24,252 nt of DNA from a virus: positions 1 to 24,252 of the IMG/VR virus record IMGVR_UViG_3300007345_000270, one strand, 5' to 3'. The notes below the pieces were generated by a model. It ran no database searches. It was given only the letters and a program-made list of their open reading frames with translations, and had not been told where the DNA came from. This document shows positions 1-24,252 of this stretch, one piece after another; position 1 is the stretch's first letter, and every line of letters begins with the position of its first letter. The translations under genes were made by a program, and so were the position numbers.

Positions 1-2
1 AA

Positions 3-116
3 TCGGCAGATACGATTGAGAACCTTATGGCTGTTTGTAGAACGTGCCACGTTAAATATGGAGATGTTCCAAGCAAGAAGGAATGGCTCAAGAAAATTCA
101 CAACAGAAACCTTTAA
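3..116 (+). CDS. HNH endonuclease-like protein, C-terminal fragment
   Basis: This is the 3' end of a gene that begins before the window; the frame is open from base 3 to a TAA at 114-116 (37 codons). The visible residues read NLMAVCRTCHVKYGD followed by a KEWLKKIHNRN tail. The N-L-x-x-x-C-x-x-C-H pattern is typical of the last beta-hairpin and helix of HNH nucleases, where the two cysteines often bind a structural zinc and the N/H residues belong to the active site. Phage HNH proteins cut DNA and may assist packaging, or act as homing nucleases. The longer ATG-initiated reading in another frame across this stretch (from 16) is best read as a shadow of this gene. The catalytic first histidine lies outside the window, so the call rests on a short C-terminal motif only. 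Confidence 0.6.
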   Translation, partial: SADTIENLMAVCRTCHVKYGDVPSKKEWLKKIHNRNL

Positions 117-129
117 CACCAAAAGAGAG

Positions 130-255
130 ATGACTGACCAAGAGAAAGCCACAAAGATTTTATTCTACCTTTTAGCGTTTACGATAGCGATGTTTGCACT
201 AAGTGTATTAGCATTGATGTATGTTTATGTTCACCCTACAATAACTTTACGATGA
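130..255 (+). CDS. Small single-pass membrane protein
   Basis: A 41-residue protein starting MTDQEKATK, with one hydrophobic segment at about residues 10-33 (LFYLLAFTIAMFALSVLALM region) and a short polar tail. The frame is open further upstream to 16, but that part overlaps the HNH-like gene in another frame and looks non-coding; the ATG at 130 lies 13 bases after the HNH stop and follows an A/G-rich stretch, so I prefer it. Its stop overlaps the next start as ATGA (252-255), suggesting translational coupling. One short transmembrane helix alone does not identify a holin or any other role. Function unknown. Confidence 0.5.
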   Translation: MTDQEKATKILFYLLAFTIAMFALSVLALMYVYVHPTITLR

Positions 256-785
256 TAGTATTAGACCAACAACAAAAGATTGCAGATTATTGGAAGAATA
301 TATGCAAGAATTACAGCATTCAAAACAACAGACAAAGACACAACGTTATCTACCGACACGCATTTGCAATGGCGGTTCTTGAGAACAGCGTTCTACCTAT
401 GAAGGTTATCGGCAATATGATTGACCGAGACCACGCTACGGTAATCCACGCAAGAAAGAATCATCAGACCAATTACTTGTACGACAAGAAGTATGCTGCT
501 GCATACCTTCAGATAAGTAATAAAATCAAAGATTTTTGTGAGGAATATGACGATAGTCTTATGGTATTGCTCAAGAGTCGAGCGGTCAAGATAACAGATG
601 AGGGATTGCTAAGAGAACTTGAAGAAACTCAAGAACGTAAAATAAAGCGTTTAGAGGACAAATATAAGTCAGAGGCGGAAACCCTCCGCTTGGAGAACAA
701 AGCACTCTCTAAAACGCTTACAAAAGCCTTAGAAAGAAACCATTATCTTCACGAGGAGTTAGCAAGACTAAAGAATATAATATGA
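252..785 (+). CDS. DnaA domain IV-like DNA-binding protein with C-terminal coiled coil
   Basis: A 177-residue protein. Residues about 25-75 resemble the C-terminal DNA-binding domain of the replication initiator DnaA: a helical run (RHAFAMAVLEN), then MKVIGNMIDRDHATVIHARK, which carries the D-H-A-T-V-x-H-A signature (D60 to A67) used by DnaA to read DnaA boxes. There is no AAA+ ATPase domain, so it is not a full initiator. The C-terminal third (about 117-177) is charged and heptad-like (LEETQERKIKRLEDKYK), predicting a coiled coil for self-association. Likely roles are binding phage or host origin sites, or a transcription regulator; this is inference. It overlaps its neighbours on both sides (ATGA at 252; next start at 782), consistent with one operon. 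Confidence 0.7.
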   Translation: MIVLDQQQKIADYWKNICKNYSIQNNRQRHNVIYRHAFAMAVLENSVLPMKVIGNMIDRDHATVIHARKNHQTNYLYDKKYAAAYLQISNKIKDFCEEYDDSLMVLLKSRAVKITDEGLLRELEETQERKIKRLEDKYKSEAETLRLENKALSKTLTKALERNHYLHEELARLKNII

Positions 786-1285
786 TTGAGGTTGCTGTAA
801 CACCTTCTATGTATAGAGCTGCTAAACAGCGTTTCGAGTTCGGAGCGTTGAGGGCTTCGATAACAAAAGGTGGAGGCAACCTTGCCGGTGCTTTGGGTGA
901 ACTTGCATATATAGAGTGGCTAACCAAACAAGGGTATAGGGTTGAGGATACAAGCACCTACGATTATGATATAATAGTCAATGGCTTCAAGGTCGATGTC
1001 AAGACCAAGAGGATAAACAACAAACCGGCTGACAATTATCGTGTTGCTGTTGCCTCAGCAAACACAACTCAGAAGTGCGACTTCTATTTCTTTGCATATT
1101 GCTTGTACAACACGAACAAGGTTTACTTGTCGGGCTATTGTGCGAAGGCTCAATACTTCGAGAAAGCATCTTTCAGAAAGCAAGGTATGGCTGACCCAAA
1201 CGGAGACAATCCTAACTACAAATTCGCTGCGGATTGCTACATTATGAAGCATATAAGCCTAAATAAATTCAAGACTTTTGGTTAA
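782..1285 (+). CDS. PD-(D/E)XK nuclease-like protein
   Basis: A 167-residue protein with the ordered acidic motifs of a PD-(D/E)XK nuclease core: GALGELAYIEWL (E40) in the first helix, YDYDIIV (D63) at the first catalytic strand, and FKVDVKTKR (D72-x-K74) at the second. The N-terminal G-x-x-G-E-x-A helix followed by Y-D-I and V-D-V-K-T is common in phage and R-M-linked nucleases of this fold. The C-terminal half is aromatic-rich (CDFYFFAYCL) and probably completes the beta-sheet. It starts 4 bases before the upstream gene ends. Substrate is unknown; a role in phage recombination, host DNA degradation or structure-specific cleavage is possible. A non-catalytic relative cannot be excluded. Confidence 0.6.
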   Translation: MIEVAVTPSMYRAAKQRFEFGALRASITKGGGNLAGALGELAYIEWLTKQGYRVEDTSTYDYDIIVNGFKVDVKTKRINNKPADNYRVAVASANTTQKCDFYFFAYCLYNTNKVYLSGYCAKAQYFEKASFRKQGMADPNGDNPNYKFAADCYIMKHISLNKFKTFG

Positions 1286-1308
1286 TTAAAATACTTTTTT
1301 TAACATTG
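1277..1308 (+). promoter_or_regulatory. Putative Bacteroidota-type promoter (-33/-7)
   Basis: TTTG at 1277-1280, a 20-base spacer, then TAACATTG at 1301-1308, one mismatch from TAnnTTTG, the -7 element of Bacteroidota primary-sigma promoters. The spacer ends in ACTTTTTTTAA, which recurs in the second candidate promoter at 3530-3560. The site overlaps the end of the upstream gene and lies 24 bases before the ATG at 1332. It would drive the small-gene block that follows. Not experimentally supported. Confidence 0.5.
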
Positions 1309-1331
1309 AGTGTTTAACCAACTTAAATTTT

Positions 1332-1673
1332 ATGGAAACTGTTACAAAACACAACTACGAAAGCGTCCAAGGATTAGAAGGTCGCTATGTAAATCAGCAC
1401 TTATGGTCTGATGTTAATCCGGTAGGAAAGATTATCTCTACACGAGGTAAGAATTTCGTTACGATTCAACCAATGTCTGCCGGAGAGAACAAGACCAAGA
1501 TGGAATTTGTGGTCGGAGGTTTTTCCGGTCATTGCATAAATCAGTATGCGCAGAAATACGATTTCTTTGAGGACGGAGAGCCTTATGAAGTCAGAATAAG
1601 TAAAACACAATTAGCTAATCGTTTTTGGAAAATCGAGGATAGTCCTTGCAAATACTACGATTACAACTTTTAA
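1332..1673 (+). CDS. Hypothetical phage protein
   Basis: A 113-residue protein that I do not recognise. It alternates short hydrophobic strands (VGKIISTRGKNFVTI, KMEFVVGGFSG) with polar turns and probably forms a small beta-rich domain, ending in a tyrosine-rich tail (KYYDYNF). No catalytic motif, membrane segment or signal peptide is visible. It is the first gene after the candidate promoter at 1277-1308 and is followed directly by a perfect hairpin (1682-1702), so it may be transcribed partly as its own unit. The ATG at 1332 has an AT-rich leader containing AACCAACT, which also occurs before two later starts. Confidence 0.65.
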   Translation: METVTKHNYESVQGLEGRYVNQHLWSDVNPVGKIISTRGKNFVTIQPMSAGENKTKMEFVVGGFSGHCINQYAQKYDFFEDGEPYEVRISKTQLANRFWKIEDSPCKYYDYNF

Positions 1674-1681
1674 TCAAAATC

Positions 1682-1706
1682 GGGAGGGTGCAAATCCCTC
1701 CCTTAT
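1682..1706 (+). terminator. Hairpin, probable weak terminator or attenuator
   Basis: GGGAGGG (1682-1688), a 7-base loop, and CCCTCCC (1696-1702) form a perfect 7-bp GC-rich stem, followed by TTATTA rather than a clean T-run. It sits 8 bases after the stop of one gene and 11 bases before the ATG of the next. The poor T-tract suggests partial termination or mRNA end protection. Confidence 0.55.
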
Positions 1707-1713
1707 TACAACT

Positions 1714-1944
1714 ATGGGAACAAATGTAAAAGTTCAAAACAAGAAGAATCTAAGACACGTAATACTATCCGGCTGTGATTGGTATATCGAGGCAGACTTC
1801 CACGAAGGACAAGAAGGTGATTGGAACAATCCTCGTATTGAGCACCATTGGGAAATCCTAACTATCTACAATAGCGATATGCAAGAGGTCTCTTATGGCG
1901 AGATATGGGACGCTATCGCAGAAAGAGCAGAGCATATATTGTAA
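1714..1944 (+). CDS. Hypothetical small phage protein
   Basis: A 76-residue protein without a family I can name. It starts MGTNVKVQNKK and is rich in aromatic and acidic residues (CDWYIEADFHEG, WNNPRIEHHWEILTIY), suggesting a small alpha/beta fold. No catalytic motif or membrane segment is visible. It follows the hairpin at 1682-1702; its ATG is preceded by TTATTACAACT with no Shine-Dalgarno sequence. Its stop codon overlaps an ATG in another frame (TAATG), but the better continuation is the coiled-coil gene starting at 1951. Confidence 0.55.
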   Translation: MGTNVKVQNKKNLRHVILSGCDWYIEADFHEGQEGDWNNPRIEHHWEILTIYNSDMQEVSYGEIWDAIAERAEHIL

Positions 1945-1950
1945 TGAGCT

Positions 1951-2226
1951 ATGAATGGTTTTGCTACCTATGCTCTACGGGAGCAGTTGATTATCTTGTC
2001 AGAGATGATAAAGGACAACTTAGACAATCGTACTGCGGTATTACAACTCGAAGCACTTTACGCATCAATCAGCTTTTGTATCACATCAATCGAAAAGATT
2101 GAGAAGCGTATCCTTGATGCTCAAATCAAGAACGGATATCTCGAGATGGATATCCAAAAGCTCAAGTCTGAAAACAAGGAGTTGATAAAAAAAGTCGAGG
2201 ACTTGACCGAGCGTATCGAATTATAG
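1951..2226 (+). CDS. Hypothetical coiled-coil protein
   Basis: A 91-residue, almost wholly helical protein. The C-terminal half (from about residue 45) shows clear heptads (IEKIEKRILDAQIKNGYLEM, then LKSENKELIKKVEDLTERIEL), predicting a coiled coil that forms dimers or higher oligomers. A competing frame starts at 1944 with a TAATG junction but ends at 2102; this frame continues with codon use like its neighbours, so it is preferred. Small coiled-coil proteins next to phage replication genes are common but have no single function. Function unknown. Confidence 0.55.
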   Translation: MNGFATYALREQLIILSEMIKDNLDNRTAVLQLEALYASISFCITSIEKIEKRILDAQIKNGYLEMDIQKLKSENKELIKKVEDLTERIEL

Positions 2227-2257
2227 TTTATATTCCACGGTATGAACCGATTATGGA

Positions 2258-2782
2258 ATGACGCTTCTTGACAAACTTGCAGAGAGAGATTCTGATTGGA
2301 TAAGAATGGCTCAGTCTTTCGGATTAACCATTGATTCTGCAAGAGAACTTGTGCAAGATATGTACGTCAAACTCTACGACAAAACCACTCTCGATAAAAT
2401 CAAGTACGGAGATGATGATGTGAACACGTTCTATGTTTACGTTACTTTAAGGAACTTATACTATGATAGGCAGAGAGTTAAGATAACCTATGTTGATTTA
2501 GATGAAGCTATCAATGACGAGCCGGATTTGATTGAGTCAAAGCATTTGCTTGAGGAATTGCTCAACGCAATATCAGACACCATAGAAGATTTGCATTGGT
2601 ACGACAAGAAGATATTTGAAATCTACTACGGAGACAATAAAACAATCAGAGCCTTGAGTGAGGATAGTAAGATAAGTCAAAGTTCAATTTTTAATACACT
2701 AAAAAATGTCAGAACAAAAATCAAAGAAAACCACAAGGAAGCGTACGAAGAGTACCGCCAAGCCAAAGGTGAAAAAGAGTAG
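2258..2782 (+). CDS. Sigma-70-like RNA polymerase sigma factor
   Basis: A 174-residue protein with the two-domain layout of small sigma factors. Residues about 12-72 (MAQSFGLTIDSARELVQDMY, then FYVYVTLRNLYYD) resemble region 2, which binds RNA polymerase and the -10/-7 element. Residues about 96-155 resemble region 4: a helical stretch, then YDKKIFEIYYGDNKTIRALS and a helix-turn-helix ending SSIFNTLKNVRTKIKE. It is short even for an ECF sigma and may work as a dedicated phage sigma for later genes or as a regulator bound to host polymerase. Its last 77 bases overlap the next gene in another frame. Target promoters are unknown; the two promoter-like sites in this window look like host consensus. 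Confidence 0.65.
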   Translation: MTLLDKLAERDSDWIRMAQSFGLTIDSARELVQDMYVKLYDKTTLDKIKYGDDDVNTFYVYVTLRNLYYDRQRVKITYVDLDEAINDEPDLIESKHLLEELLNAISDTIEDLHWYDKKIFEIYYGDNKTIRALSEDSKISQSSIFNTLKNVRTKIKENHKEAYEEYRQAKGEKE

Positions 2783-3155
2783 AGGTCTCGGAGATGATAT
2801 CGAGAAGATTACAGAAGCAACCGGTATCAAGAAAGCAGTAGAATGGTTCAGCGAAGCAACCGGAATCGATTGTGGCTGTGATGCTCGTAAGGAGAAGCTC
2901 AACAGAATCTTCCCCAACAAGAGTAATGTCCTTTGCCTTGAGCAAGGAGAGTATGAAACTCTCAAGCAATTCTTCAGCAACTTTGATGGCAGAGCAATCG
3001 AGGGACAATACCAAGAACCATTAGCAAGAATACACGCAAGAGTATTCCAACATAAGTTCGCAGTTCCTTGTACGTGTTCTCCGAAGGAATGGAAATACCT
3101 AATCGCTGACTTGAAAGGCATATACAAATCCTATGACTCCGGAGCAACTGTTTAA
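2706..3155 (+). CDS. Hypothetical conserved phage protein with CxC motifs
   Basis: A 149-residue protein with a strongly basic N-terminus (KKTTRKRTKSTAKPKVKKS) followed by GLGDDIEKITEATGI and a region containing two C-x-C motifs, GIDCGCDARKEKLN and VPCTCSPKEWK. The paired cysteines could bind a metal, and the basic tail could bind nucleic acid; both are inference. I recognise similar sequences in phages of Bacteroidota but know no assigned function. The only ATG in the frame is at 2706, so it overlaps the sigma-like gene by 77 bases, and its basic tail is encoded by the same DNA as the sigma C-terminus. Its end overlaps the next gene start by 23 bases. Confidence 0.6.
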   Translation: MSEQKSKKTTRKRTKSTAKPKVKKSRGLGDDIEKITEATGIKKAVEWFSEATGIDCGCDARKEKLNRIFPNKSNVLCLEQGEYETLKQFFSNFDGRAIEGQYQEPLARIHARVFQHKFAVPCTCSPKEWKYLIADLKGIYKSYDSGATV

Positions 3156-3525
3156 TATCGTCAAGATTACACACGTTCCGGATTTAAAATGGAGTGATAC
3201 TTACAACGCAAAAGTCGATTGTTACTCGGAGAGGTACAAAATGGACATAGAGTTGAAGTGTCGCAATAAGCATTACGATGAGCTTATGATTGAGAAGGAT
3301 AAGTATGATTCGTTGATGCAAAGGTCAAGTAGGTATAACACCACTCCTATTTACATAAACAGCACTCCTAAGGGTGTTTTTGTGTTCAACCTTGGGGCTG
3401 TGCCGGAACCTCAATGGAAAGACAAGGGTGGGCTTCCTACGACCTCACACTTCAACAACAAAACATTGATAGTCAAGACGGTAGGATTCCTACCTATTAA
3501 CTTAGCTAAGAAAATAAGTGAGTAA
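3133..3525 (+). CDS. Putative nuclease-like protein (DxExK motif)
   Basis: A 130-residue protein. Residues 27-45 contain KVDCYSERYKMDIELKCR, in which M-D38-I-E40-L-K42 resembles the (D/E)-x-K strand of PD-(D/E)XK nucleases, followed by a helix rich in charged residues (YDELMIEKDKYDSLM). The remainder (TTPIYINSTPKGVFVFNL) fits the later beta-strands of such a fold. The first catalytic acidic residue is not clear, so activity is uncertain. The start overlaps the end of the upstream gene by 23 bases. It is the last gene before a candidate promoter at 3530-3560. It could instead be a binding protein with no catalysis. Confidence 0.45.
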   Translation: MTPEQLFNIVKITHVPDLKWSDTYNAKVDCYSERYKMDIELKCRNKHYDELMIEKDKYDSLMQRSSRYNTTPIYINSTPKGVFVFNLGAVPEPQWKDKGGLPTTSHFNNKTLIVKTVGFLPINLAKKISE

Positions 3526-3529
3526 TTTT

Positions 3530-3560
3530 TTTGTTAATAACTAAACTTTTTTTAAACTTG
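3530..3560 (+). promoter_or_regulatory. Putative Bacteroidota-type promoter (-33/-7)
   Basis: TTTG at 3530-3533, a 19-base spacer, and TAAACTTG at 3553-3560, one mismatch from TAnnTTTG. The spacer contains GTTAAT and ACTTTTTTTAA, shared with the promoter-like site at 1277-1308, so the two may be a duplicated regulatory cassette. It lies in a real intergenic gap. A transcript starting just downstream would include the ATG at 3591 with a leader of roughly 25 bases, supporting that start over the ATG at 3564. Confidence 0.55.
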
Positions 3561-3590
3561 CTTATGGAACTAACTAAAAAACAACCAACT

Positions 3591-3749
3591 ATGAATTATT
3601 CAATGATTATCAATCGTGTCGAGCTTGACTCTGACAATCTAAACGACCTTATCGAGATTGCTGTCGATTATGGTGTGTGTCCATCTACCGAGATTTACAA
3701 GAATGGTGTCCCGATGAGAGAGACTATGGCAGATTTTATTCAGTACTAA
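3591..3749 (+). CDS. Hypothetical small acidic protein
   Basis: A 52-residue protein starting MNYSMIINRVELD, with an acidic helix (SDNLNDLIEIAVDYG) and a C-terminal MRETMADFIQY. The frame is open back to 3531 with an ATG at 3564, but the promoter-like -7 element ends at 3560, which would leave that ATG nearly leaderless. The ATG at 3591 is directly preceded by AACAACCAACT, a sequence also found before 3769, so I prefer it. No family recognised. First gene of a short block ending in the RecE-like exonuclease. Confidence 0.5.
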   Translation: MNYSMIINRVELDSDNLNDLIEIAVDYGVCPSTEIYKNGVPMRETMADFIQY

Positions 3750-3768
3750 TCAATAACAACCAACTATT

Positions 3769-4095: not shown

Positions 4096-4870
4096 CAAAG
4101 AAATCTTGATGCTCGATGGCATCTACCACGAGGTAGGTCATCTTGAGCAGTTAGCTAAGGAGGACGAGCATTACTACGGATACTTGGGCAAGGCAGCATT
4201 GTCCTCAAGTTCTATCAAGATGCTATTACAATCTCCCAAGACTTACCATTATGTTACTACCTATGGTCAAGACAACAATTCCAAGGCATTGCTTATCGGT
4301 AAGCTGTTTCACTTAGCGGTACTCGAGCCACACAAGATGGACGAGGTAAGAGTCGTACCGGTCAAGAGTAGAAATACTAAGGCATTCAAGGAGGCAGCCG
4401 AAGAAGGAGGAGAGGTTATAACGGAAGCAGAAGAAAGTCAGATTAGAAGATTGCAAGATGCGATGCTTCGCAATGAGAAGGTACTTAGTTATCTCAAAGG
4501 TGCTCAGTTTGAAATCCCTCGAGTAGATGAGCTTGATGGAATGCCATTCCGAGCTAAGGCAGATATCCTTCAAGGAGACCATATCATTGACCTCAAGACA
4601 ACAAGCGACCTCAACGCATTCAAGTATTCAGCATATAAATATGGTTACGATATTCAAGCGTATATTTACTGCAACCTATTTGGAGTGCCACCGGAGAACT
4701 TCCATTTCGTAGCTATCGACAAAGGTAGCCTTGACATCGGAGTGTATCACGTTAGTGAGGAGTTCTATGAGAAGGGCAAGGAGAGGACTCGTAAGGGTAT
4801 AGATTTGTACCGTAAGTTCTTCCAAGAAGGTATTGACTTAGACAGCTACTATATAGAGGAGACGTTATGA
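4082..4870 (+). CDS. RecE-like PD-(D/E)XK exonuclease
   Basis: A 262-residue protein of the phage exonuclease group related to RecE/exodeoxyribonuclease VIII (DUF3799-like). Motifs in order: LSSSSIKMLLQSPKTY (40-55), GKLFHLAVLEP with H77, FEIP with E144, FRAKADI with D161, IIDLKTTS with D170-x-K172, and YDIQAYIY with Q192 and Y194. These match the G-x-x-x-H, E, D, (D/E)-x-K and Q-x-x-x-Y series of lambda-exonuclease-type enzymes that resect double-stranded ends for single-strand annealing. A recognisable annealing partner is not in this window. Family members often begin close to the GIYHE motif, so the ATG at 4109 (residue 10) is a credible alternative start. It overlaps the next gene by 4 bases. 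Confidence 0.75.
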   Translation: MFYSNKEILMLDGIYHEVGHLEQLAKEDEHYYGYLGKAALSSSSIKMLLQSPKTYHYVTTYGQDNNSKALLIGKLFHLAVLEPHKMDEVRVVPVKSRNTKAFKEAAEEGGEVITEAEESQIRRLQDAMLRNEKVLSYLKGAQFEIPRVDELDGMPFRAKADILQGDHIIDLKTTSDLNAFKYSAYKYGYDIQAYIYCNLFGVPPENFHFVAIDKGSLDIGVYHVSEEFYEKGKERTRKGIDLYRKFFQEGIDLDSYYIEETL

Positions 4871-5595
4871 TACCAAAGAAGATTCATCAGATTTACTTTC
4901 CGTGGAATGGTCCTTTCGAGGACATTCCTATTTTTGTTAAGAGCAGAAAGATTATCCTTGACTTGCATCCGGATTGGGAATACAAGTTATGGGGAGAGGA
5001 GGAATCTCTTGAGCTTGTTAGGAAACACGCTCCCGATATGGAGCTATTCTATCTTGGTCTAAGATACAACATACAACGAGTAGACTTCATCAAGTTTCTT
5101 GTTCTCAAGGTACACGGTGGATTCTATGTAGACTTAGACTCGTATTGCATCAAGCCGTTTGATGATTTAATCGGCAAGAGGTTCATACTGCATACGCTTC
5201 AGCATATGCTACCCGACCACAAGGAATTTGTGCAGAATGACTTTATGGCTTCCGAGCCTAACTTCAAGTTTTGGGATATAATCTTCAAGGAGATAGTTAC
5301 CAATTATAACGAGAAGTCGAGCAACCCTATATACGACCAATGGAAAGGTCGATTTGTTTTGCAAACCACCGGTCCCCGCTTTTTATCAAGAGTCGTTAAA
5401 AACGTCCTACCGAGCTACAAGCCACACAAAGTGGTGTGGACAAAGTGGCGTAACAATAATTGGGAACGTTTTGATAGAAACGACTATTACTTCGAATCAT
5501 TTCAAACCGGCTCTTGGCTGTCTGATGTAAGCCCGAGCCTAAAAGCTAATAAATTATTCAACAAAAATGAAAACAGAGAAGATAGCGATAGGTAA
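4867..5595 (+). CDS. GT32-like glycosyltransferase with DXD motif
   Basis: A 242-residue protein that begins MIPKKIHQIYFPW, the typical opening of OCH1/GT32-type transferases (Gly_transf_sug family). Residues 67-100 carry the signature R71-x-D73 and GGFYVDLDSY, where D89-x-D91 is the metal and nucleotide-sugar binding DXD motif. The rest holds the acceptor side of a GT-A fold. In bacteria such enzymes usually build surface glycans; here the gene lies directly before ParB-, TAGT- and TET/JBP-like genes, so a role in glycosylating a modified DNA base is plausible, but this is inference. Start overlaps the exonuclease stop (ATGA) and its last 29 bases overlap the next gene. Acceptor and sugar donor unknown. 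Confidence 0.8.
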   Translation: MIPKKIHQIYFPWNGPFEDIPIFVKSRKIILDLHPDWEYKLWGEEESLELVRKHAPDMELFYLGLRYNIQRVDFIKFLVLKVHGGFYVDLDSYCIKPFDDLIGKRFILHTLQHMLPDHKEFVQNDFMASEPNFKFWDIIFKEIVTNYNEKSSNPIYDQWKGRFVLQTTGPRFLSRVVKNVLPSYKPHKVVWTKWRNNNWERFDRNDYYFESFQTGSWLSDVSPSLKANKLFNKNENREDSDR

Positions 5596-6154
5596 GGTAT
5601 TCTTATCTCCAACGAATCCGAGAGTAATCAAGAACGACAAGTTCAAGAAACTTGTGAATAGCATTAGGGAGTTCCCCGAGATGCTCAAGGTTAGACCTAT
5701 TGTTGTAGATGAGGACAATGTTGTTCTTGGAGGCAATATGCGATTACGTGCTTGTATCGAAGCCGGTCTGAAAGAAGTGCATATTATCAAGGCATCAGAG
5801 TTCAACGATGAGCAGAAGAAAGAGTTTGTCATCAAAGACAACAGCTCATTCGGAGAATGGGATTGGGATATTCTTGCTAACGAATGGGAGATAGAGGACT
5901 TGAATGATTGGGGATTGGATATTCCGGCATCATACTTTGATGATGATGTTGAGCCGGAGTTCGATATGGACGAGCTTGACAAAGAGCTTGATACATACAT
6001 CAACGCAAAGGTCAAGCAGATTACTATGTACTTTGACAACGACCAATACGAGCAAGTTTTAAGCAGTCTACAATCTATTGCAATCAGCGAAGGTCTTGAC
6101 AACAATACCGATGTTGTGTTGCACCTAATCGAAATGTATGAAGCTGAAGAATAA
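5567..6154 (+). CDS. ParB/Srx-like domain protein
   Basis: A 195-residue protein with a ParB-type N-terminal domain: SPTNPRV (14-20), RPIVVDEDNVVLGGNMRLRA (43-62) carrying the G-G-N-x-R-x-R-A nucleotide-binding motif, then AGLKEVHII and FVIKDNSSFGEWDWD. In many phages this domain is fused to a DNA methyltransferase; here no methylase motif (DPPY-like or PCQ) follows. Instead there is an acidic linker (EPEFDMDELDKELD) and a small C-terminal domain (KQITMYFDNDQYEQVLSSL). ParB-like domains bind CTP or act as nucleases, and they recur in phage DNA-modification islands, where they may target enzymes to DNA. It overlaps both neighbours (29 and 17 bases). Confidence 0.75.
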   Translation: MKTEKIAIGKVFLSPTNPRVIKNDKFKKLVNSIREFPEMLKVRPIVVDEDNVVLGGNMRLRACIEAGLKEVHIIKASEFNDEQKKEFVIKDNSSFGEWDWDILANEWEIEDLNDWGLDIPASYFDDDVEPEFDMDELDKELDTYINAKVKQITMYFDNDQYEQVLSSLQSIAISEGLDNNTDVVLHLIEMYEAEE

Positions 6155-6869
6155 ATGGTTGGCTCTTGTTCCAAGCAAGGGCAGACCGGAGGAATTTGCC
6201 AAGAGCTGTAAGCCATTACTTGAGACATTGCCGATTGATTCGGCAGTTTTACTTGAGAAAAGCGACTACGATAAGTACGACTATCCGAACAAGATACTAC
6301 TCGACAAAGAGAACCAAGGCATCGGATATGCTATACACTTTGCTCGGCTATGGGCAGAGGAAAACGGATACGATGTTATCTTCAAGATAGATGATGATGT
6401 TACCAAGATAGGAGCAGTCCACGAGGACTTGGAGACTATCGACCATTACCTACATAAATATGAGGATTGTGCCGGAGTGAGCTTCCCATACTCTTTTGAG
6501 TTTTACGATGTTACCAAGAAAAAGTTGTTCAGTCATATAAATAAACGCTTCCAAACTTGTTATATAATAAAGACTAAATTCTTCAAGACAACGGAAAGGC
6601 TCAAGCAGATAGAGGATTTCTTCTACTATATGATGGCTATTAGAAACAACGGATTTGTGCTGAGGTGTTCAAAACACCCTATGCACACAGCACCGGTTGG
6701 AAGCAATGAGGGAGGAGCGCAATGCTTTGACCGAGCCAAGCTTTACCTTGAGGACATAAAGTTATTTAAGGAAATCGACCCGACAATCAAGGTTATCCAC
6801 AAACCGGATAAGCATTGGAAGTACGAGCCGAAACTAACTGATAAAATGTACAAGGCTAAGCCGATATGA
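6138..6869 (+). CDS. TET-associated-type glycosyltransferase (TAGT-like)
   Basis: A 243-residue GT-A fold glycosyltransferase. It opens with LALVPSKGRPEEF (8-20), the motif of the phage family called TET-associated glycosyltransferases, has KENQGIGYAIHFA (57-69), and the metal-binding acidic triad FKIDDDV (D85-D87). The C-terminal part contains MAIRNNGFVLRC and TAPVGSNEGGAQ, likely acceptor and donor loops. Known relatives sit beside TET/JBP dioxygenases and add sugars to hydroxylated pyrimidines in phage DNA. Here the dioxygenase-like gene follows at once (start 6866, 4-base ATGA overlap), which strongly supports that role. The sugar and exact base are not deducible from sequence. No signal peptide, consistent with cytoplasmic DNA modification. 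Confidence 0.7.
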   Translation: MKLKNKWLALVPSKGRPEEFAKSCKPLLETLPIDSAVLLEKSDYDKYDYPNKILLDKENQGIGYAIHFARLWAEENGYDVIFKIDDDVTKIGAVHEDLETIDHYLHKYEDCAGVSFPYSFEFYDVTKKKLFSHINKRFQTCYIIKTKFFKTTERLKQIEDFFYYMMAIRNNGFVLRCSKHPMHTAPVGSNEGGAQCFDRAKLYLEDIKLFKEIDPTIKVIHKPDKHWKYEPKLTDKMYKAKPI

Positions 6870-7765
6870 AAGAACTACACCTCGAACGTAACGAGATTGA
6901 TGTTGCTAAGTTCAAGAAACGAACAGCAAAACGCTCTGATGTAAGCCAAGTAATCAAAGAAGATGTAATCATCTACTGCGATAACGAACCGGTCATACTA
7001 TACAAGAAGCTCAATACAGATACCTCAGCGCTTCGTTGGGCTGTTAAAAATATCGGCTATTCCACCGGTAAGCGTTCGAGAGGATTGGTCTCTACAAGCG
7101 CTATATTTGGTTACTCGCCACGAATAGCAATGAGGCACGACTACTGTACCGTAACGGCTATGGCTATAAACGAGAAGAAGCAACATTATGTTATCACACA
7201 ATTTGCAAAGGAGCTCGTAGGATATTACAAAGAACACTTTCCCGAGAGATACGAGTTCCATACCAAGCTCGTAGAAGAACGAGTGATGCAAGATTGGACT
7301 ATCGGAGGAAGTCCGTTTACATCGGGTATCGTAAACAAGAACAATCAACTCAAGTACCACTACGATGCCGGTAACTTCAAAGGTGTGCTATCCAATATGG
7401 TTGTATTCAAGAAAGATGTTTCGGGAGGGTATCTTGTAATACCCGAGTTTGACCTCGCACTCGAAGTAGCAGACGAGACCGTAACAATCTTCAACGGACA
7501 AGATATTCTACACGGAGTAAGCACAATAGAATACGACAACGAACACGCATATAGATATTCTGCCGTATATTACTCACTCGAACAAATGTGGAAGTGTGAA
7601 CCTCTCGATGATGAGATAGCAAGAATCCGTAAAATAAAAACCGAGAGAGAACATAAACGTCTCGATGAGGAACACTTAGATACGCTTAGAATAAGAAAGG
7701 AAGAACTACAAGGTGCGAGTATAAACGAGCTACTGAAGAACAAGAAGAAGAATGACAAAAACTGA
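6866..7765 (+). CDS. TET/JBP-like 2-oxoglutarate/Fe(II) DNA-base dioxygenase
   Basis: A 299-residue protein with the double-stranded beta-helix iron site in its C-terminal half: KYHYDAGN gives H165-x-D167-x-x-N170, matching the H-x-D-x-x-N pattern of TET/JBP enzymes; ILHGVST gives the distal H216; and HAYRYSAVYY gives R230 for binding 2-oxoglutarate. Strands between them (GVLSNMVVFKKDVSGGYLVI) fit the fold. TET/JBP enzymes hydroxylate the methyl of 5-methylcytosine or thymine in DNA. The N-terminal ~140 residues are of unknown detail and the last ~55 form a charged helical tail, possibly DNA binding. It follows the TAGT-like gene and overlaps the small terminase gene by 14 bases. Substrate base unproven; no C5-methylase is in the window. 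Confidence 0.75.
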   Translation: MKELHLERNEIDVAKFKKRTAKRSDVSQVIKEDVIIYCDNEPVILYKKLNTDTSALRWAVKNIGYSTGKRSRGLVSTSAIFGYSPRIAMRHDYCTVTAMAINEKKQHYVITQFAKELVGYYKEHFPERYEFHTKLVEERVMQDWTIGGSPFTSGIVNKNNQLKYHYDAGNFKGVLSNMVVFKKDVSGGYLVIPEFDLALEVADETVTIFNGQDILHGVSTIEYDNEHAYRYSAVYYSLEQMWKCEPLDDEIARIRKIKTEREHKRLDEEHLDTLRIRKEELQGASINELLKNKKKNDKN

Positions 7766-8099
7766 CACAACTAAAAAGGCAATGCTTCAAGCACTTGAGA
7801 AAAGTTTAGGTGTTGTTACAACGGCTTGTAAAAGCGTAGGTATCTCAAGAGAAACACACTACAAATGGCTTCGTGAGGACGAGTCCTACAAGGAGTCCGT
7901 AGATGACCTTGTGAATGTAGCTTTGGACTTTGCAGAAACACAACTGCACAAACAAATCAGCAAAGGGAATCCCACGTCTACGATATTCTATCTCAAGACC
8001 AAAGGCAAGAACAGAGGATATATCGAGCGACAAGAGATACAGCACGATGGCGGAGAGGGATTGCGTATAGAGATTATAGATGGCAACGCTTCAGACTAA
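7752..8099 (+). CDS. terS: Terminase small subunit
   Basis: A 115-residue protein directly before the large terminase gene, overlapping it by 20 bases. Residues 12-40 (LQALEKSLGVVTTACKSVGI, then RETHYKWLRED) form a helix-turn-helix of the type found in phage small terminases, followed by a helical oligomerisation region (VDDLVNVALDFAETQLHKQI) and a motif common in this group, NPTSTIFYLKTKGKNRGY. The acidic C-terminal tail (GGEGLRIEIIDGNASD) probably contacts the large subunit or portal. Small terminases form rings that recognise the packaging site on phage DNA. Confidence 0.8.
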   Translation: MTKTDTTKKAMLQALEKSLGVVTTACKSVGISRETHYKWLREDESYKESVDDLVNVALDFAETQLHKQISKGNPTSTIFYLKTKGKNRGYIERQEIQHDGGEGLRIEIIDGNASD

Positions 8100-9243
8100 T
8101 GTAGTATTTAGACATCTCCAAAATAGCGATAGCAGAATTGTTATAGAGCAAGGAGGCACACGTTCCGGCAAGACGTACAATATCCTTATATGGATTCTCA
8201 CCTATTGTCTTGCTCCCGAGAACACCGGTCAAATCATTACTATATGCCGTAAAACCTTTCCGGCTGTTCGGGCAACAGTTATGAGGGACTTCTTTGAGAT
8301 AATAGAACGTGCCGGTGTCTATGACCCGGAGACTCACAACAAGAGTAGCAATGAGTATAGGCTTGGCGGTAATATGATTGAGTTCATATCGCTCGACCAA
8401 CCTCAAAAGGTACGTGGTAGAAAGCGTAACTTACTTTACTTGAACGAAGCTAACGAAGTAGACTTTGAGTCGTGGCAGCAGCTTATTATGAGAACATCGG
8501 GTAAGGTTATCATTGACTACAATCCGTCTATGGAATACCATTGGATATACGACAAGGTAATACCAAGAGATGATGCTGAGTTCTACAAGACAACATACCT
8601 TGATAATCCGTTCCTATCCAAGACGCTTATAGATGAGATTGAAAGACTCAAGCAAACCGATGAGCAGTATTGGCAGATATATGGTCTTGGTGAGCGTGGT
8701 CAAAGCAAGGCAATCATATTCCAACACAACGAGGTAGAGATGATACCCGAAGGAGCATCACTCATCTCAGCGGGTATGGACTTTGGATTTACCAATGACC
8801 CTACGACACTTGTACTTGCATATCGTAAGGACTTAGACTTGTACTTCGAGGAGCTTGTGTATCAGACCGGTTTGACAAACCGAGATATACACCATAAGCT
8901 AAGGACGATTGGCTTTGACAAGAGGACTGAGATATTTGCAGATAGTGCTGAACCCAAGAGTATCAAGGAGCTTCAGTTGTTTGGTTGGAATATCAAGCCA
9001 ACAGCCAAAGGAAGGGATTCAGTAATGGCGGGTATTGATATGCTCAAGAGATATAGACTTAATGTAACTAAATCAAGTATTAACTTGATTAAGGAGCTAA
9101 GAAATTATAAATTCGTAGAGGACATAAATGGTAGAGTTTTGAATAAACCTATTGACGAGAACAACCACGCTATTGATGCAGTACGATACGCAACATACAA
9201 CCGACTCAGTAGACCTAACTACGGAAGGTACGCTGTAAGATAA
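8080..9243 (+). CDS. terL: Terminase large subunit
   Basis: A 387-residue packaging motor and nuclease of the Terminase_3 type. The ATPase domain has Walker A GGTRSGKT (25-32), a RKTFPAVR coupling-type segment (57-64) and Walker B LLYLNEANE (118-126). The RNase H-like nuclease domain has AGMDFGFTNDP (D234), FADSAEPKS (D288) and NNHAIDAVRYA (D366), three acidic metal ligands in the usual order. It packages DNA into the prohead through the portal and cuts concatemers. Length is slightly short for the family (often about 400-450) but all motifs are present. It follows the small subunit and is followed after 15 bases by the chaperone-like gene. Confidence 0.93.
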   Translation: MATLQTNVVFRHLQNSDSRIVIEQGGTRSGKTYNILIWILTYCLAPENTGQIITICRKTFPAVRATVMRDFFEIIERAGVYDPETHNKSSNEYRLGGNMIEFISLDQPQKVRGRKRNLLYLNEANEVDFESWQQLIMRTSGKVIIDYNPSMEYHWIYDKVIPRDDAEFYKTTYLDNPFLSKTLIDEIERLKQTDEQYWQIYGLGERGQSKAIIFQHNEVEMIPEGASLISAGMDFGFTNDPTTLVLAYRKDLDLYFEELVYQTGLTNRDIHHKLRTIGFDKRTEIFADSAEPKSIKELQLFGWNIKPTAKGRDSVMAGIDMLKRYRLNVTKSSINLIKELRNYKFVEDINGRVLNKPIDENNHAIDAVRYATYNRLSRPNYGRYAVR

Positions 9244-18521: not shown

Positions 18522-18523
18522 TT

Positions 18524-19379: not shown

Positions 19380-19403
19380 AAATAAAAATAATCAATAATT
19401 AGT

Positions 19404-20366
19404 ATGGCAACAACTACTAACATTACATCTACTTATGCCGGTGAATTTGCCGGTAAGTATATTAGTGCAGCGTTACTTTCTGCTGACACTATCGAGAACG
19501 GTGGTATTACCGTTAAACCTAACGTGAAGTACAAAGAGGTATTGAAAAAGGTATCAACAGATGACATCGTAAAAGATGGCTCTTGTGATTTCTCTGATAC
19601 TTCTACATTGACTCTTACAGAGCGTATCCTTCAGCCGGAGGAGTTCCAAGTAAACTTGGAGTTATGTAAGCAAGACTTCCGTTCAGATTGGGAGGCTATT
19701 CAAATGGGATATTCTGCATTTGACTCTTTGCCACCTTCATTCTCTGACTTCCTTATCGGACACGTTTCTGCGAAGGTAGCTCAGCGTATGGAAACAAACA
19801 TTTGGGCGGGAGTAGACAGCGGAAACAGCGGTCAGTTCGATGGCTTCTTAACAACATTAGCTGCTGACTCTGACGTTGTAGACGTATCCGCTGCGACAAT
19901 CACTGCTGCGAACGTTATCGCTCAGTTAGGTGCTGTTGTAGATGCTATTCCTACTACTGTTTACGGTAAGGAAGATTTACACGTTTATATTGCACCAAAC
20001 ATAGCTCGTGCTTATGTTCGTGCTTTAGGTGGTTTTGGTTCTATAACAAACGGAACGGGAGCAACTCAATCCGGTGCAGCCGGTGCTAATGGTGTAAACA
20101 ACCAAGGTACATTGTGGTACGGAATGGGACAAAACTTGGCTTTCGATGGTGTTAAATTGTTCGTTTGTCCGGGCTTACCGGATAACCGTATGGTTGCAGC
20201 TCAGAAAGAGAACTTGTTCTTCGGTACTTCATTGCTTTCTGATATGAACGAGGTTCGTGTCTTAGATATGGCTGACCTTGATGGTTCTCAGAATGTGCGT
20301 GTAGTAATGCGTTTTACTGCCGGTATCCAACACGGACTCGGTTCTGAAATTGTATTATACTCTTAA
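19404..20366 (+). CDS. Major capsid protein
   Basis: A 320-residue protein. Segments such as GGITVKPNVKYKEVLKKVST, TLTLTERILQPEEFQVNLEL, FSDFLIGHVSAKVAQRMETN and the glycine-rich GNSGQFDGFLTT look like the N-arm, E-loop and P-domain helix of HK97-type capsids, and EDLHVYIAPNIARAYVRAL followed by GLPDNRMVAAQKENLFFGT is a common capsid pattern. The gene uses a distinct, narrow codon set (GAC/GAG/CGT, GTA, GCT), typical of a highly expressed gene. It is closed by a strong terminator (20390-20425) and has its own A/T-rich leader (19380-19403). It has the usual length for a small capsid protein. Confidence 0.8.
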   Translation: MATTTNITSTYAGEFAGKYISAALLSADTIENGGITVKPNVKYKEVLKKVSTDDIVKDGSCDFSDTSTLTLTERILQPEEFQVNLELCKQDFRSDWEAIQMGYSAFDSLPPSFSDFLIGHVSAKVAQRMETNIWAGVDSGNSGQFDGFLTTLAADSDVVDVSAATITAANVIAQLGAVVDAIPTTVYGKEDLHVYIAPNIARAYVRALGGFGSITNGTGATQSGAAGANGVNNQGTLWYGMGQNLAFDGVKLFVCPGLPDNRMVAAQKENLFFGTSLLSDMNEVRVLDMADLDGSQNVRVVMRFTAGIQHGLGSEIVLYS

Positions 20367-20389
20367 TAAGAGAATTTGAATAATAATTA

Positions 20390-20425: not shown

Positions 20426-20438
20426 AATAAGAAATAAT

Positions 20439-20990
20439 ATGGCGTGTGATTTAACAAAAGGACGTATCGTTCCTTGTCGTGATTCGGTTGGTGGGATTGC
20501 AGAAGTTTACTTCGTAGATTACGGAGACTTAGGTAATATCACTGTTGCCGCTGATGATGAGGTTACAGATGCAGACGGTACGTTTAATGCGTATCAATAC
20601 TTACTCAAGGGCAATAGCTCTTTGACACAAAACGTTACCGCTTCTCGTGAGAACGGTACGGTATTCTTCGAGCAAGTTCTTGAGCTTACCTTGCCTAAGA
20701 TGAGTAAAGAGGACAACAAAGAATTGAAGTTGTTGGCTTATGGTAGACCTCACATTGTTGTGGTAGACTATAATGGTAATGCTTTTATGATGGGACGTGA
20801 GCACGGTTGTGATGTAACCGGAGGTACAGTAGTTACCGGTGCAGCAATGGGAGACTTGAGTGGCTACACTTTATCTTTCTCTGCAATGGAATTGGCTCCG
20901 GCTAACTTCATAGCTTCTCCGGCAGCCGGTAATCCTTTCAATGGCTTAACAAGTGCTGTTGAAACTATTGTAGCCGGTACGGACTTCTAA
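20439..20990 (+). CDS. Putative major tail (tube) protein
   Basis: A 183-residue, beta-rich protein starting MACDLTKGRIVPCRDSVGG. It includes RENGTVFFEQVLELTLPKMS, GRPHIVVVDYNGNAFMMGRE and a glycine/threonine/alanine-rich VTGGTVVTGAAMGDLSGYTL followed by a beta strand and AMELAPANF. Such glycine-spaced strands and a late 'GYTLSFSAMELAPA' segment fit the fold shared by tail tube and related proteins. Isolated between two strong terminators, it appears to be its own transcription unit, as expected for an abundant structural protein. A head protein of similar fold is possible. The start ATG has the A-rich leader AATAAGAAATAAT. Confidence 0.5.
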   Translation: MACDLTKGRIVPCRDSVGGIAEVYFVDYGDLGNITVAADDEVTDADGTFNAYQYLLKGNSSLTQNVTASRENGTVFFEQVLELTLPKMSKEDNKELKLLAYGRPHIVVVDYNGNAFMMGREHGCDVTGGTVVTGAAMGDLSGYTLSFSAMELAPANFIASPAAGNPFNGLTSAVETIVAGTDF

Positions 20991-21011
20991 GAGTTCATTG
21001 GTTTATAACAA

Positions 21012-21040
21012 GGGGAGGGCTAAGGCTCTCCCTTTTTTTT
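21012..21040 (+). terminator. Strong rho-independent terminator
   Basis: GGGAGGGC (21013-21020) and GCTCTCCC (21025-21032) form an 8-bp stem (one G-T pair) with a TAAG loop, followed by eight T's (21033-21040). It sits 22 bases after the stop of the tail-tube-like gene and 31 bases before the next ATG. The T-run also lies where a TTG codon could start the next gene, but that codon is unlikely to be used. Confidence 0.88.
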
Positions 21041-21071
21041 GCAAAATACTTTTTACAATCGTTACTTAGGT

Positions 21072-21407
21072 ATGCACATAGTAAGTACAACAGACAAGAC
21101 AATTAAATTTGTTCCAAGAAAGGTGCAAACAGATTTGTCTATTAAGATTACGGACGAGCAAGAAAACGATTCTGCATTGGAAAGCGTAACCGGTGGTGAT
21201 AGCGGTAACTTTGTCAAGATTGCACCGACATATACATTCAAAGAAGGAAGGTTTTACTATATTGTAATTACCGGAACTGATGAAGAAGAATTGTATCGTG
21301 GTAAAGTTTTTTGTACCAATCAAACAGATTTTGATAAGTTTACGGTCAATGAGAATGTATATACTGAATATGAAAAGGCAAATGCCAATGAATACATTGT
21401 AATATGA
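21072..21407 (+). CDS. Hypothetical beta-rich virion-region protein
   Basis: A 111-residue protein starting MHIVSTTDKTIKFVPRK. The frame is open back to a TTG at 21039, but that lies inside the terminator T-run, so the ATG at 21072 is chosen. Strand-forming stretches (KIAPTYTFKEGRFYYIVITG) and the end LYRGKVFCTNQTDFDKFTVN, then YEKANANEYIVI recur in unnamed proteins of Bacteroidota phages. It ends in an ATGA junction with the portal gene (21404-21407), so it probably acts with the head-tail joining proteins. No function can be assigned. Confidence 0.6.
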   Translation: MHIVSTTDKTIKFVPRKVQTDLSIKITDEQENDSALESVTGGDSGNFVKIAPTYTFKEGRFYYIVITGTDEEELYRGKVFCTNQTDFDKFTVNENVYTEYEKANANEYIVI

Positions 21408-23272
21408 AGCTACACGCTATAAATCTTGCGAGTTATACGAAGCCCGAAATCATAGAGAGAAAGAATCGTGATTGGGTAGAGTACGGAGCTGACAACGACT
21501 ACTATCAGTATTTGATAGACCGATTCAACGGCAGTCCAACAAACAACGCCATTATAAACGCTATCAGCGACCTTATCTACGGAAAAGGTATAGATGCTAC
21601 GGACAGCAATAGAAAGCCCGATGAGTACGCTAAAATGCGTTCTTTGATTAAAGAAGATTGCTTGAGAAAAGTAACGAGTGATTTGAAGTTGATGGGACAA
21701 TGTGCCTTTCAGATTATCTACACCAAGACCGGAAGGCAGATTGCTCAAGTAGAACACATTCCTATTCAGACTCTAAGGGCTGAAAAGATGAATGAGGAAG
21801 GGGATATTGAGGCTTACTACCATTGTGCTGATTGGTCGGAGTTAAAACCGGCTGACGTGCCAACACGCATACCGGCATTCGGTACATCAAAAGAAGCTAT
21901 TGAGATATATTGTGTCAAGCCATATCGTGCCGGATACTATTACTATTCTCCGGTAGACTACCAAGGTGGTATTCCGTATGCTGAACTCGAAGAAGAAGTA
22001 GCAAACTACCATATCAACAACATCAAGAATGGTCTTGCACCTTCGATGATGATAAACTTCAACAACGGAGTTCCCGATGAGGAGGAGCGTATGTTGATTG
22101 AGTCGAAGATTAGAGACAAGTTTAGTGGCTCAAGCAATGCCGGTAACTTTATACTTGCTTTCAACGAGAGCAAGGAGTTAGCTGCAACTATTGATGCTGT
22201 TCCATTGTCTGATGCACCGGCACAATACGAGTTTTTATCCTCAGAAGCAATGCAGAAGCTAATGGTTGCTCACCGAGTAACATCACCTATGCTTTTAGGT
22301 ATCAAGGATAATAGTGGACTTGGAAACAATGCGGAAGAAATAGAGACTGCAACGTTGTTGTTTGACAACACGGTTATCCGTCCGTTCCAAAACTTGATTA
22401 TCAAGGCATTAGAGCAGATTCTTGCTGTAAATAGCATCAATCTTGACCTATACTTCAAGACACTACAACCTCTTGAGTTTACTGACCGCAGTGCAGCGGT
22501 AACAAAAGAGGAGCAAGAGAAAGAAACCGGAGAGAAATTGTCTGCACAAGATTGTGGTTGCAAGACTGAACTGAAAGATGACCCTTGTTGGGACGGCTAT
22601 GTAATGGTCGGATTCAAGGAGAAAGACGGAAAGAAAGTTCCTAACTGCGTACCGGAGGAGAGCATCAATGCTAATGCAGATGCTTTGATTGACTTAGGAG
22701 AGGACATAAACCTTGACGAGTGGGAATTGGTAGACGAAAGAGACGTGGACTACGACCAAGAGGAAGCTCTTGACAAGATGATTGGTCTTGCCTCGACCGG
22801 TTCTGCCCGTCCTAATGCGAAAAGCTCTCAAGACGGCTCTAACGCTGAAGGAGATAAGTTCTTGGTTCGTTACCAATACTCTCCGCTGAAAGCCGGAGCG
22901 AATAGTCGTGAGTTCTGCAAGAAAATGGTCGCTGCGAAGAAGGTCTATCGCAAGGAAGATATCATAAGAATGGAGCAACTTTCAGTCAATGCCGGATTCG
23001 GACCTAACGGCTCGAACAATTACTCGGTATGGCTATACAAAGGAGGAGCTCGATGCCAACACAAATGGGTTCGCAAGACCTATATGTATAAGAATGGTGT
23101 GAAGCCGGACGTAAAAAGTCCTAATGCTGAAACTATCAGCACTACCAAGGCAAGAGGTAAAGGTTTTAGAGCACCGGCAAACGAGAACAAGGTAAGCGTT
23201 GCACCAAACAAGATGAAAAACAAGGGATTCATAAACCCACCAAGTAAAAAAGACATACAAGGAGGAATATAA
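21404..23272 (+). CDS. Portal protein with extra C-terminal domain
   Basis: A 622-residue protein. Residues 1-360 carry portal features: SPTNNAIINAISDLIYGKG (44-62), TSDLKLMGQCAFQIIYTKTG (91-110), HIPIQTLRA (118-126), a long helical stem region, and MVAHRVTSPMLLGI (287-300). Portals form the dodecameric ring at one head vertex for DNA passage. After residue 380 there is an added region: a cysteine-rich segment (CGCKTELKDDPCWDGYVMVG, about 384-403, then VPNCVP), then about 485-565 SREFCKKMVAAKKVYRKEDI and YKGGARCQHKWVRKTY, a separate domain with C505 and C551-x-H553. Its length (622) is long for a portal. It follows the capsid block, an unusual order. It ends at TAATG with the connector gene. 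Confidence 0.75.
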   Translation: MKLHAINLASYTKPEIIERKNRDWVEYGADNDYYQYLIDRFNGSPTNNAIINAISDLIYGKGIDATDSNRKPDEYAKMRSLIKEDCLRKVTSDLKLMGQCAFQIIYTKTGRQIAQVEHIPIQTLRAEKMNEEGDIEAYYHCADWSELKPADVPTRIPAFGTSKEAIEIYCVKPYRAGYYYYSPVDYQGGIPYAELEEEVANYHINNIKNGLAPSMMINFNNGVPDEEERMLIESKIRDKFSGSSNAGNFILAFNESKELAATIDAVPLSDAPAQYEFLSSEAMQKLMVAHRVTSPMLLGIKDNSGLGNNAEEIETATLLFDNTVIRPFQNLIIKALEQILAVNSINLDLYFKTLQPLEFTDRSAAVTKEEQEKETGEKLSAQDCGCKTELKDDPCWDGYVMVGFKEKDGKKVPNCVPEESINANADALIDLGEDINLDEWELVDERDVDYDQEEALDKMIGLASTGSARPNAKSSQDGSNAEGDKFLVRYQYSPLKAGANSREFCKKMVAAKKVYRKEDIIRMEQLSVNAGFGPNGSNNYSVWLYKGGARCQHKWVRKTYMYKNGVKPDVKSPNAETISTTKARGKGFRAPANENKVSVAPNKMKNKGFINPPSKKDIQGGI

Positions 23273-23772
23273 TGGCAACAGCATTATTTATAACACGAAC
23301 CGACCTTGTTAGAAACACTTTCCTATCGGGAAATGTAGATACTGACAAGTTCATTCAGTTTATTAAGATAGCACAAGAGATACACGTTCAGCAATATCTC
23401 GGCTCGAAGCTATACGACAAGATAGCAAACGACATAATAGCTGACTCACTTACCGGAAACTATCAGAGTTTGGTGAATGATTATATTCAGCCAATGTTGA
23501 TTCACTATGCTATGACTGAATACTTACCTTTTAGTGCGTTTACAGCATCGAATGGTGGTGTGTATAAAAAGACTGTTGAGAACGGAGAAACAGCTACTCG
23601 TAACGACCTTGCTTTTTTGATAGAAAAAGAGCGTAATCTTGCCGAGTATTATACTCGTAGGTTTATAGACTATATGTCTTTCAATCAGAACCTATTCCCC
23701 GAGTACAATCAGAACGTAAATGACGATATATATCCTTCAAAGGATAGCACTTTTAACGGATGGGTATTATAA
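23272..23772 (+). CDS. Head-tail connector protein (DUF6712-like)
   Basis: A 166-residue helical protein beginning MATALFITRTDLVRNTFLSG. KFIQFIKIAQEIHVQQYLGS, then LYDKIANDII and LVNDYIQPMLIHYAMTEYLP are the helices seen in the DUF6712/gp6-type connector family of Bacteroidota phages, which forms a ring under the portal. The tail NQNLFPEYNQNVNDDIYP is also typical. Position right after the portal gene supports the assignment. Its start is coupled to the portal stop (TAATG) and its end overlaps a small basic ORF by 13 bases. Confidence 0.7.
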   Translation: MATALFITRTDLVRNTFLSGNVDTDKFIQFIKIAQEIHVQQYLGSKLYDKIANDIIADSLTGNYQSLVNDYIQPMLIHYAMTEYLPFSAFTASNGGVYKKTVENGETATRNDLAFLIEKERNLAEYYTRRFIDYMSFNQNLFPEYNQNVNDDIYPSKDSTFNGWVL

Positions 23773-23852
23773 AAACATACAAACCAAAAGCTACCAATGT
23801 AAAGAAACTCAAGGTTTACTTATCAAAGGTTGCGAAACGAGATAAGCAATGA
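23760..23852 (+). CDS. Small basic ORF (30 aa)
   Basis: A 30-residue, strongly basic ORF reading MGIIKTYKPKATNVKKLKVY and ending SKVAKRDKQ. It starts 13 bases inside the connector gene and ends in an ATGA overlap with the next start (23849), filling the only gap here. Position, coupling and lysine-rich sequence suggest a real small protein that may bind DNA, RNA or an acidic partner. No family can be named and the length is below most gene-finding limits. Confidence 0.55.
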   Translation: MGIIKTYKPKATNVKKLKVYLSKVAKRDKQ

Positions 23853-24067
23853 GTGATTTAGAAGGATACGGTAAAATCTATGATTCTACTTGGTGGGGAG
23901 TAGGCAGAGATAACAACATTAGTTGGGGTATTGTCTATGCCAATTTAGGAAGCATTGCACCTCAATTAGTTAGTGCTTTTAAGACTCGTGTAGAGGCTGA
24001 TGGTGGTAGCGTAGAGAATACTGCTTGTCTTACTACTGATGTTGAATTTCTAACTCAAAACCCTTAA
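23849..24067 (+). CDS. Hypothetical small virion-region protein
   Basis: A 72-residue protein beginning MSDLEGYGKIYDSTWWGVGR. Two tryptophan-rich stretches (STWWGVG, ISWGIVY) precede a short helix (LVSAFKTRVEADGG) and an end with a single cysteine (SVENTACLTTDVEFL). I recognise similar small proteins near the portal/connector genes of Bacteroidota phages but not their function. ATGA coupling with the small basic ORF upstream; the next gene begins 5 bases after the stop. No membrane segment. Confidence 0.55.
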   Translation: MSDLEGYGKIYDSTWWGVGRDNNISWGIVYANLGSIAPQLVSAFKTRVEADGGSVENTACLTTDVEFLTQNP

Positions 24068-24071
24068 CGAT

Positions 24072-24252
24072 ATGAGTTTTTACGATGATGCAAGTTTAGT
24101 ATTCTTACCAAGCGGAGGAGCGGGAAAAGACACTAAAGCGTATAGCATAAAGCCTACAAATGGAGATGGGGACTTCACCTTTTCAAGAGGTTCAAACCTA
24201 ACGGCTACAAGGGTAGATAGCAACGGACTGATAGAGAAAGGAAGGGAGAACT
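24072..24252 (+). CDS. Fibre/appendage-like protein, N-terminal fragment
   Basis: The first 60 codons of a gene cut by the window end. The N-terminus MSFYDDASLVFLPSGGAGKD, then IKPTNGDGDFTFSRGSNLTA and TRVDSNGLIEKGREN is shared by large beta-rich tail fibre or appendage proteins in Bacteroidota phages, where it precedes a concanavalin A/LamG-like region that may bind host glycans. Only the N-terminal part is visible, so the later domains and receptor role are inference. Confidence 0.6.
   Translation, partial: MSFYDDASLVFLPSGGAGKDTKAYSIKPTNGDGDFTFSRGSNLTATRVDSNGLIEKGREN

Follow-up and report, generated by a model that had tools for sequence, protein, structure and literature searches.

Seven short words are wholly missing from 24 kb of a tailed phage genome, probably of a marine flavobacterial host: a likely outcome of Type II restriction

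The 24,252-bp stretch of viral DNA analysed here, called the window, raises the question of what can remove a set of short words from a phage genome altogether. Zero copies are found of GATC, CATG, CTAG, GGCC, CGCG, CAGG, CCTG, CCAG and CTGG, the only 4-mers with a zero count; these nine tetramers amount to seven strand-symmetric words, five of them palindromes and two of them reverse-complement pairs (CCAG/CTGG and CAGG/CCTG). A first-order model of the whole window gives 574 expected copies of the nine together, against 0 observed. The preliminary description had reported GATC, CATG and GGCC as absent where near 90, 90 and 43 copies were expected, and had noted CGCG with doubt. The recomputed independent-base expectations are GATC 86, CATG 86, GGCC 43 and CGCG 43 with 0 observed for each, which confirms all four absences, but the list was incomplete in that CTAG, CAGG/CCTG and CCAG/CTGG were missed. 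The remarks on codon choice made there (codons before ATG; Asp before C) are a direct consequence of the absence of CATG and GATC, and the palindromes stated to be present are indeed present (AGCT 110, TCGA 84, GTAC 73, GCGC 11), GCGC at a level about 3-fold under the codon null. The observation is thus real and had been understated.

The absence does not originate in composition. Maximum-order Markov z-scores are -11.9 for GATC, -10.3 for CATG, -10.1 for CTAG, -6.5 for GGCC and -4.3 for CGCG. In a codon null of 200 synonymous shuffles of the window genes, which preserve the proteins and the codon usage, the missing words return at means of GATC 75, CATG 49, CTAG 56, GGCC 29, CGCG 25, CAGG 66, CCTG 28, CCAG 42 and CTGG 55, and the lowest count for any of the nine in any shuffle is at least 14; i.e. 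the comparison with Markov and codon-shuffled nulls that had been proposed for these words yields zero counts that the shuffles never approach. The 1,442 bp outside genes likewise contain 0 of the nine tetramers vs 28 expected under the first-order model. Since about 8,900 possible single substitutions in the window would each make one of the absent words, this purity needs active upkeep.

Codon alignments with seven relatives show how the sites were lost. None of the 994 copies of the absent words that the relatives carry at homologous codons is kept in the window, as compared to 12-30% of comparison words (4-mers with at least two G/C), and 467 of the 994 were lost without any amino-acid change. 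This pattern is as expected if every site were lethal and removed by the cheapest nearby change. The record G041 (the IMG/VR record behind locus L143; 31,111 bp) matches the whole length of the window at 99.8%, so G041 is a near-complete small phage genome of which the window is about three quarters. The part of G041 beyond the window, 6,862 bp, was held out and played no part in the definition of the words; it contains 1 copy (CTGG at 771) vs 153 expected. A third record, L144, matches the window at 99.7% over 5.6 kb. The differences between the window and G041, otherwise near-identical, concentrate at 19772-19848 and include several small indels inside gene 19404-20366, by its position a putative major capsid protein.

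A mutation or repair bias in place of selection (very-short-patch, or VSP, repair acting on CTAG, methylcytosine deamination, or TA instability) has some precedent, in that many genomes are poor in CTAG and a known cause is VSP repair, a process that converts CTAG to CCAG (PMC4687349). The L034 clade, with CTAG 0/43 alongside CCAG 143/43, fits that expectation. Depletion of CTAG driven by VSP repair would, however, generate CCAG and CCWGG and leave them normal or raised, and in the window CCAG, CAGG and CTAG are all zero. Deamination does not apply to GATC and CATG because these are usually adenine-methylated. Furthermore, a bias yields depletion rather than 0/574, and relatives with similar proteins keep GATC high: its count is zero in L001-L004 and 114 in L008. 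Bias is therefore a very unlikely source of the missing words.

The relatives considered here were related to the window through its terminase or its TET dioxygenase, genes that lie in or next to a block (4867-7765) of two sugar transferases, a ParB-like protein and the dioxygenase that sits immediately before the terminase:

4867..5595, + strand, putative sugar transferase with DXD motif (Gly_transf_sug, PF04488; Pfam E 1.7e-12)
5567..6154, + strand, ParB-like protein (matches N-terminal parts of the phage ParB-nuclease and ParB-methyltransferase families)
6138..6869, + strand, TET-associated glycosyltransferase (TAGT, PF20691; Pfam 28.3 bits, cut-off 27.5; phrog_842 3e-5)
6866..7765, + strand, TET/JBP-family 2-oxoglutarate dioxygenase (PF12851, 5.4e-12, 45.7 bits, cut-off 34.9)
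7752..8099, + strand, terminase small subunit (phrog_309, 2e-8)
8080..9243, + strand, terminase large subunit (TerL), basis of the tree of relatives

Phages of this group habitually lose some tetramers altogether, terminase relatives and TET relatives alike; CATG, for example, is gone from 55 of 67 terminase loci and from 47 of 59 TET loci. The purged sets differ among relatives, and the terminase tree shows repeated gains and losses of each set. On that tree of 71 loci, a quick tree with a few long branches, the minimum state changes are 7 each for GATC and CTAG, 6 each for CCAG and GGCC, 5 for CATG, 4 each for CCGG and TCGA, and 3 each for CGCG and CAGG. The window's close relatives retain GGCC and mostly retain CAGG, while two TET-positive loci have purged AGCT+CATG+CCAG+CCGG+CTAG+GATC+TCGA (L155) and ACGT+CATG+CCGG+CTAG+GATC+GGCC+GTAC+TCGA (L213). 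In another TET-positive contig (L211, 1-12159) eight palindromes are nearly or fully lost, AATT among them (2 vs 118 expected). Among non-palindromic words, CCAG and CAGG are repeatedly lost in TET-positive loci and ACAG and CCCG once each; among TerL loci there are besides three losses of CCCG and one of CCGC. In the relatives, CCAG can be lost or kept independently of CAGG (L024/L025 vs L072/L077), which makes them two separate specificities and rules out a single word CCWG in their place.

The dioxygenase has the features of a TET cassette enzyme: its residues H165-x-D167, H216 and R230 are invariant in nine aligned homologues, including that of Nonlabens phage P12024L, and it has sugar transferases as neighbours, the TAGT barely above its cut-off and the DXD transferase, the latter kept in most close relatives and missing from G004. 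The ParB-like protein is without its methyltransferase half. For C5-methylases (PF00145) there is no match in the window, in G041, which is near-complete, or in G002, and among the further TET-positive records tested there is one weak match only, below the cut-off, in G043; 5-methylcytosine, if that is the substrate, would then have to come from the host. L009, which lies inside the TET-positive clade, has no TET and carries a C5-methylase fragment at its contig edge; it has lost CCGG, a word that its close relatives retain.

These genes bring in another kind of short-word system, such as restriction based on phosphorothioates, or nucleases that depend on modification and would be set off by what the phage's own TET produces. 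In its favor are the TET and glycosyltransferase genes themselves, and the raw means of 3.6 purged words in TET-positive vs 1.7 in TET-negative loci, which are confounded by phylogeny and GC. On independent pairs, however, TET presence shows no significant association with the number of purged words (median p 1), and CATG, CGCG, CCAG and GGCC are purged by TET-negative relatives as well. A protection of GpC by TET is unsupported, GGCC and AGCT being purged in TET-positive phages. GATC and GGCC are known phosphorothioate targets, but CATG, CTAG and CGCG are not among the motifs found in the paper concerned, in which CCAG and CAGG also find no match (PMC11931770). We consider such a system improbable.

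Selection by an enzyme of the phage itself, one that cuts host DNA at these words so that the phage avoids self-damage, is extremely unlikely. The open reading frame at 782-1285 encodes a small protein with PD-(D/E)XK nuclease likeness that scores weakly against a Type II enzyme model (3.9e-5), but seven unrelated words are too many for a single small nuclease to recognise, and among the close relatives with largely the same purged words no clear homologue of it was found.

Among bacterial assemblies the nearest terminases (61%) come from short contigs of two MAGs, one of Winogradskyella and one of Flavobacteriaceae, which points, weakly, to a host that is probably a marine member of the Flavobacteriia. 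More distant terminase relatives (37-40%) sit in long contigs of Flavobacterium genomes, several of which (L099-L107) contain phage loci, apparently prophages, without GATC and in many cases also without CATG and GGCC. In five such Flavobacterium phage loci CATG is found 0 times vs 98-108 expected and GATC and GGCC 0 or 1 times; 40 kb of each host's chromosome contains CATG 57-91, GATC 27-92 and GGCC 9-82 times. Equal depletion in the host, named in the preliminary description as evidence against restriction avoidance, is not seen in seven genomes, all bearing only distantly related phage loci, whose chromosomes retain the words. It is accordingly extremely unlikely that the phage merely mirrors its host in codon bias or in the use of words. 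GATC and CATG are slightly scarce in some Flavobacterium chromosomes, but these hold tens of copies per 40 kb vs zero in their phage loci, a contrast on which host composition is rejected as the cause; moreover, 25-75 copies per word return in the shuffles even though codon usage is preserved.

One of these genomes contains a candidate agent. Flavobacterium aquaticum encodes an M.DpnII-like methylase (E 8e-82 to PDB 2dpm) and, directly after it, a protein that fits a model of Type II restriction enzymes (E 1e-139), and in the phage locus of this genome GATC stands at 0 vs 46 expected; this methylase and nuclease are a plausible cause of the GATC loss in that locus. PF00145 was not found in the F. 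aquaticum genome, though its phage locus is without GGCC, and C5-methylases are absent from several of the host genomes searched. The Flavobacteriaceae MAG bearing the related phage contig has neither PF02086 nor PF00145, and no C5 or D12 methylases were found in the Flavobacteriaceae and Winogradskyella MAGs. Single genomes therefore do not explain the whole purged set. The match to host specificities that had been called for is thus obtained for GATC in one Flavobacterium; in this particular phage we infer restriction enzymes as the selecting agent for each word.

We therefore think it highly probable that the window belongs to a tailed phage, probably of marine Flavobacteriia, whose sites were purged under the Type II restriction enzymes of several hosts. 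Avoidance of host restriction sites, the reading offered in the preliminary description, is the only tested explanation that fits, because the loss came about by silent codon changes and is found in non-coding DNA too, because close relatives have lost differing sets, and because the hosts of related prophages keep the words. Hosts in the population would carry differing Type II enzymes that cut these words in unmodified incoming DNA, and a genome once cut would be dead. Substitutions that abolish a site, many of them silent at the codon level, would be fixed until no copy remains, with seven 4-base words wholly lost in this way and several 5-6-base words nearly so, and the purged set would shift between relatives as phage lineages meet different sets of enzymes.

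Type II targets are usually palindromes, and the five absent palindromes (GATC, CATG, CTAG, GGCC and CGCG) are targets of known Type II cutters. That all eliminated words are palindromic except the two CAG-type words is in line with Type II selection. Longer sites were sought with a second null in which synonymous codon arrangements were sampled with the nine tetramers already forbidden. The observed/expected counts under this conditional null are CGNCG 0/53, GTYRAC 0/22, CTRYAG 0/21, GTSAC 2/29, GGATG 3/33, CTCTTC 3/25, GCNNGC 5/38, CCSGG 2/15 and AAGCTT 1/15. We take GTYRAC, CTRYAG, GTSAC, GGATG, CTCTTC, CCSGG and AAGCTT to be the described Type II targets of HincII, SfcI, Tsp45I, FokI, EarI, NciI and HindIII. 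The over-representation of CCGG relative to the plain codon null (104 vs 36.5) is not a separate signal; the conditional null already gives a mean of 88.6 (range 80-95), so that the excess is largely an effect of the forbidden words.

Several points count against restriction by Type II enzymes as the full account. We know of no restriction enzyme that cuts CCAG or CAGG, and F. aquaticum is without PF00145 yet its locus is without GGCC. Reported elimination concerns mainly orthodox Type II sites, in dsDNA phages that are not temperate, and the Flavobacterium loci appear to be prophages, where strong elimination is less expected (PMC6286503). Base-modifying phages avoided few sites in the same study, coliphages with a DNA hydroxymethylase avoiding 2.4% of host sites vs 55.8% in related phages without it (PMC6286503), yet the phage of the window has such genes. 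The coexistence of modification genes with extreme site loss suggests that the modification may be sequence-limited or directed at something else. One tentative reading, which we put forward as possible though doubtful, is that CCAG/CTGG and CAGG/CCTG represent two undescribed, widespread asymmetric 4-base restriction specificities in Flavobacteriia, and that TET and TAGT act on host-methylated cytosines to give partial protection alongside purging.

Site elimination is a mechanism known for decades, and the best explanation of the window is that it was here taken unusually far. What is notable is the extent, the two unexplained non-palindromic words, the rapid turnover among relatives and the presence of a TET cassette in the purged genome; base-modification genes and purged sites in one phage run counter to what hydroxymethylating coliphages tend to show. 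The absent words record, in readable form, which restriction systems an uncultured phage lineage has faced; as this record differs between close relatives it could help to link phages to hosts, and it could reveal undescribed restriction specificities (CCAG, CAGG) without culturing. No report of flavophages lacking such sites was found in the literature searched.

Among known systems, the F. aquaticum prophage (L099) resembles the window in having zero CATG, GATC and GGCC, and 1 CAGG, over 21 kb, but it is integrated in the chromosome, its TerL is only about 39% identical, and no TET was found in those Flavobacterium genomes. Nonlabens phage P12024L (NC_018272; L223) shares the 2OG-dioxygenase, its HxD, H and R residues intact, and has a sugar transferase gene beside it; an annotated methyltransferase adjoins its cassette, unlike the window and G041, which have no C5-methylase family match. 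Its only fully absent word is GGCC (0 vs 45 expected), with CCGG at 2 vs 30 expected. The closest general parallel is with the non-temperate dsDNA phages of Rusinov et al. 2018 (PMC6286503), in which Type II words, mostly palindromic, fall genome-wide to observed/expected ratios <0.1. Unlike those cases, the window has seven words at exactly zero at once, including two non-palindromic 4-mers, together with several 5-6-base sites, and unlike the hydroxymethylating coliphages of that study, in which few sites are avoided, it combines site loss with a TET cassette.
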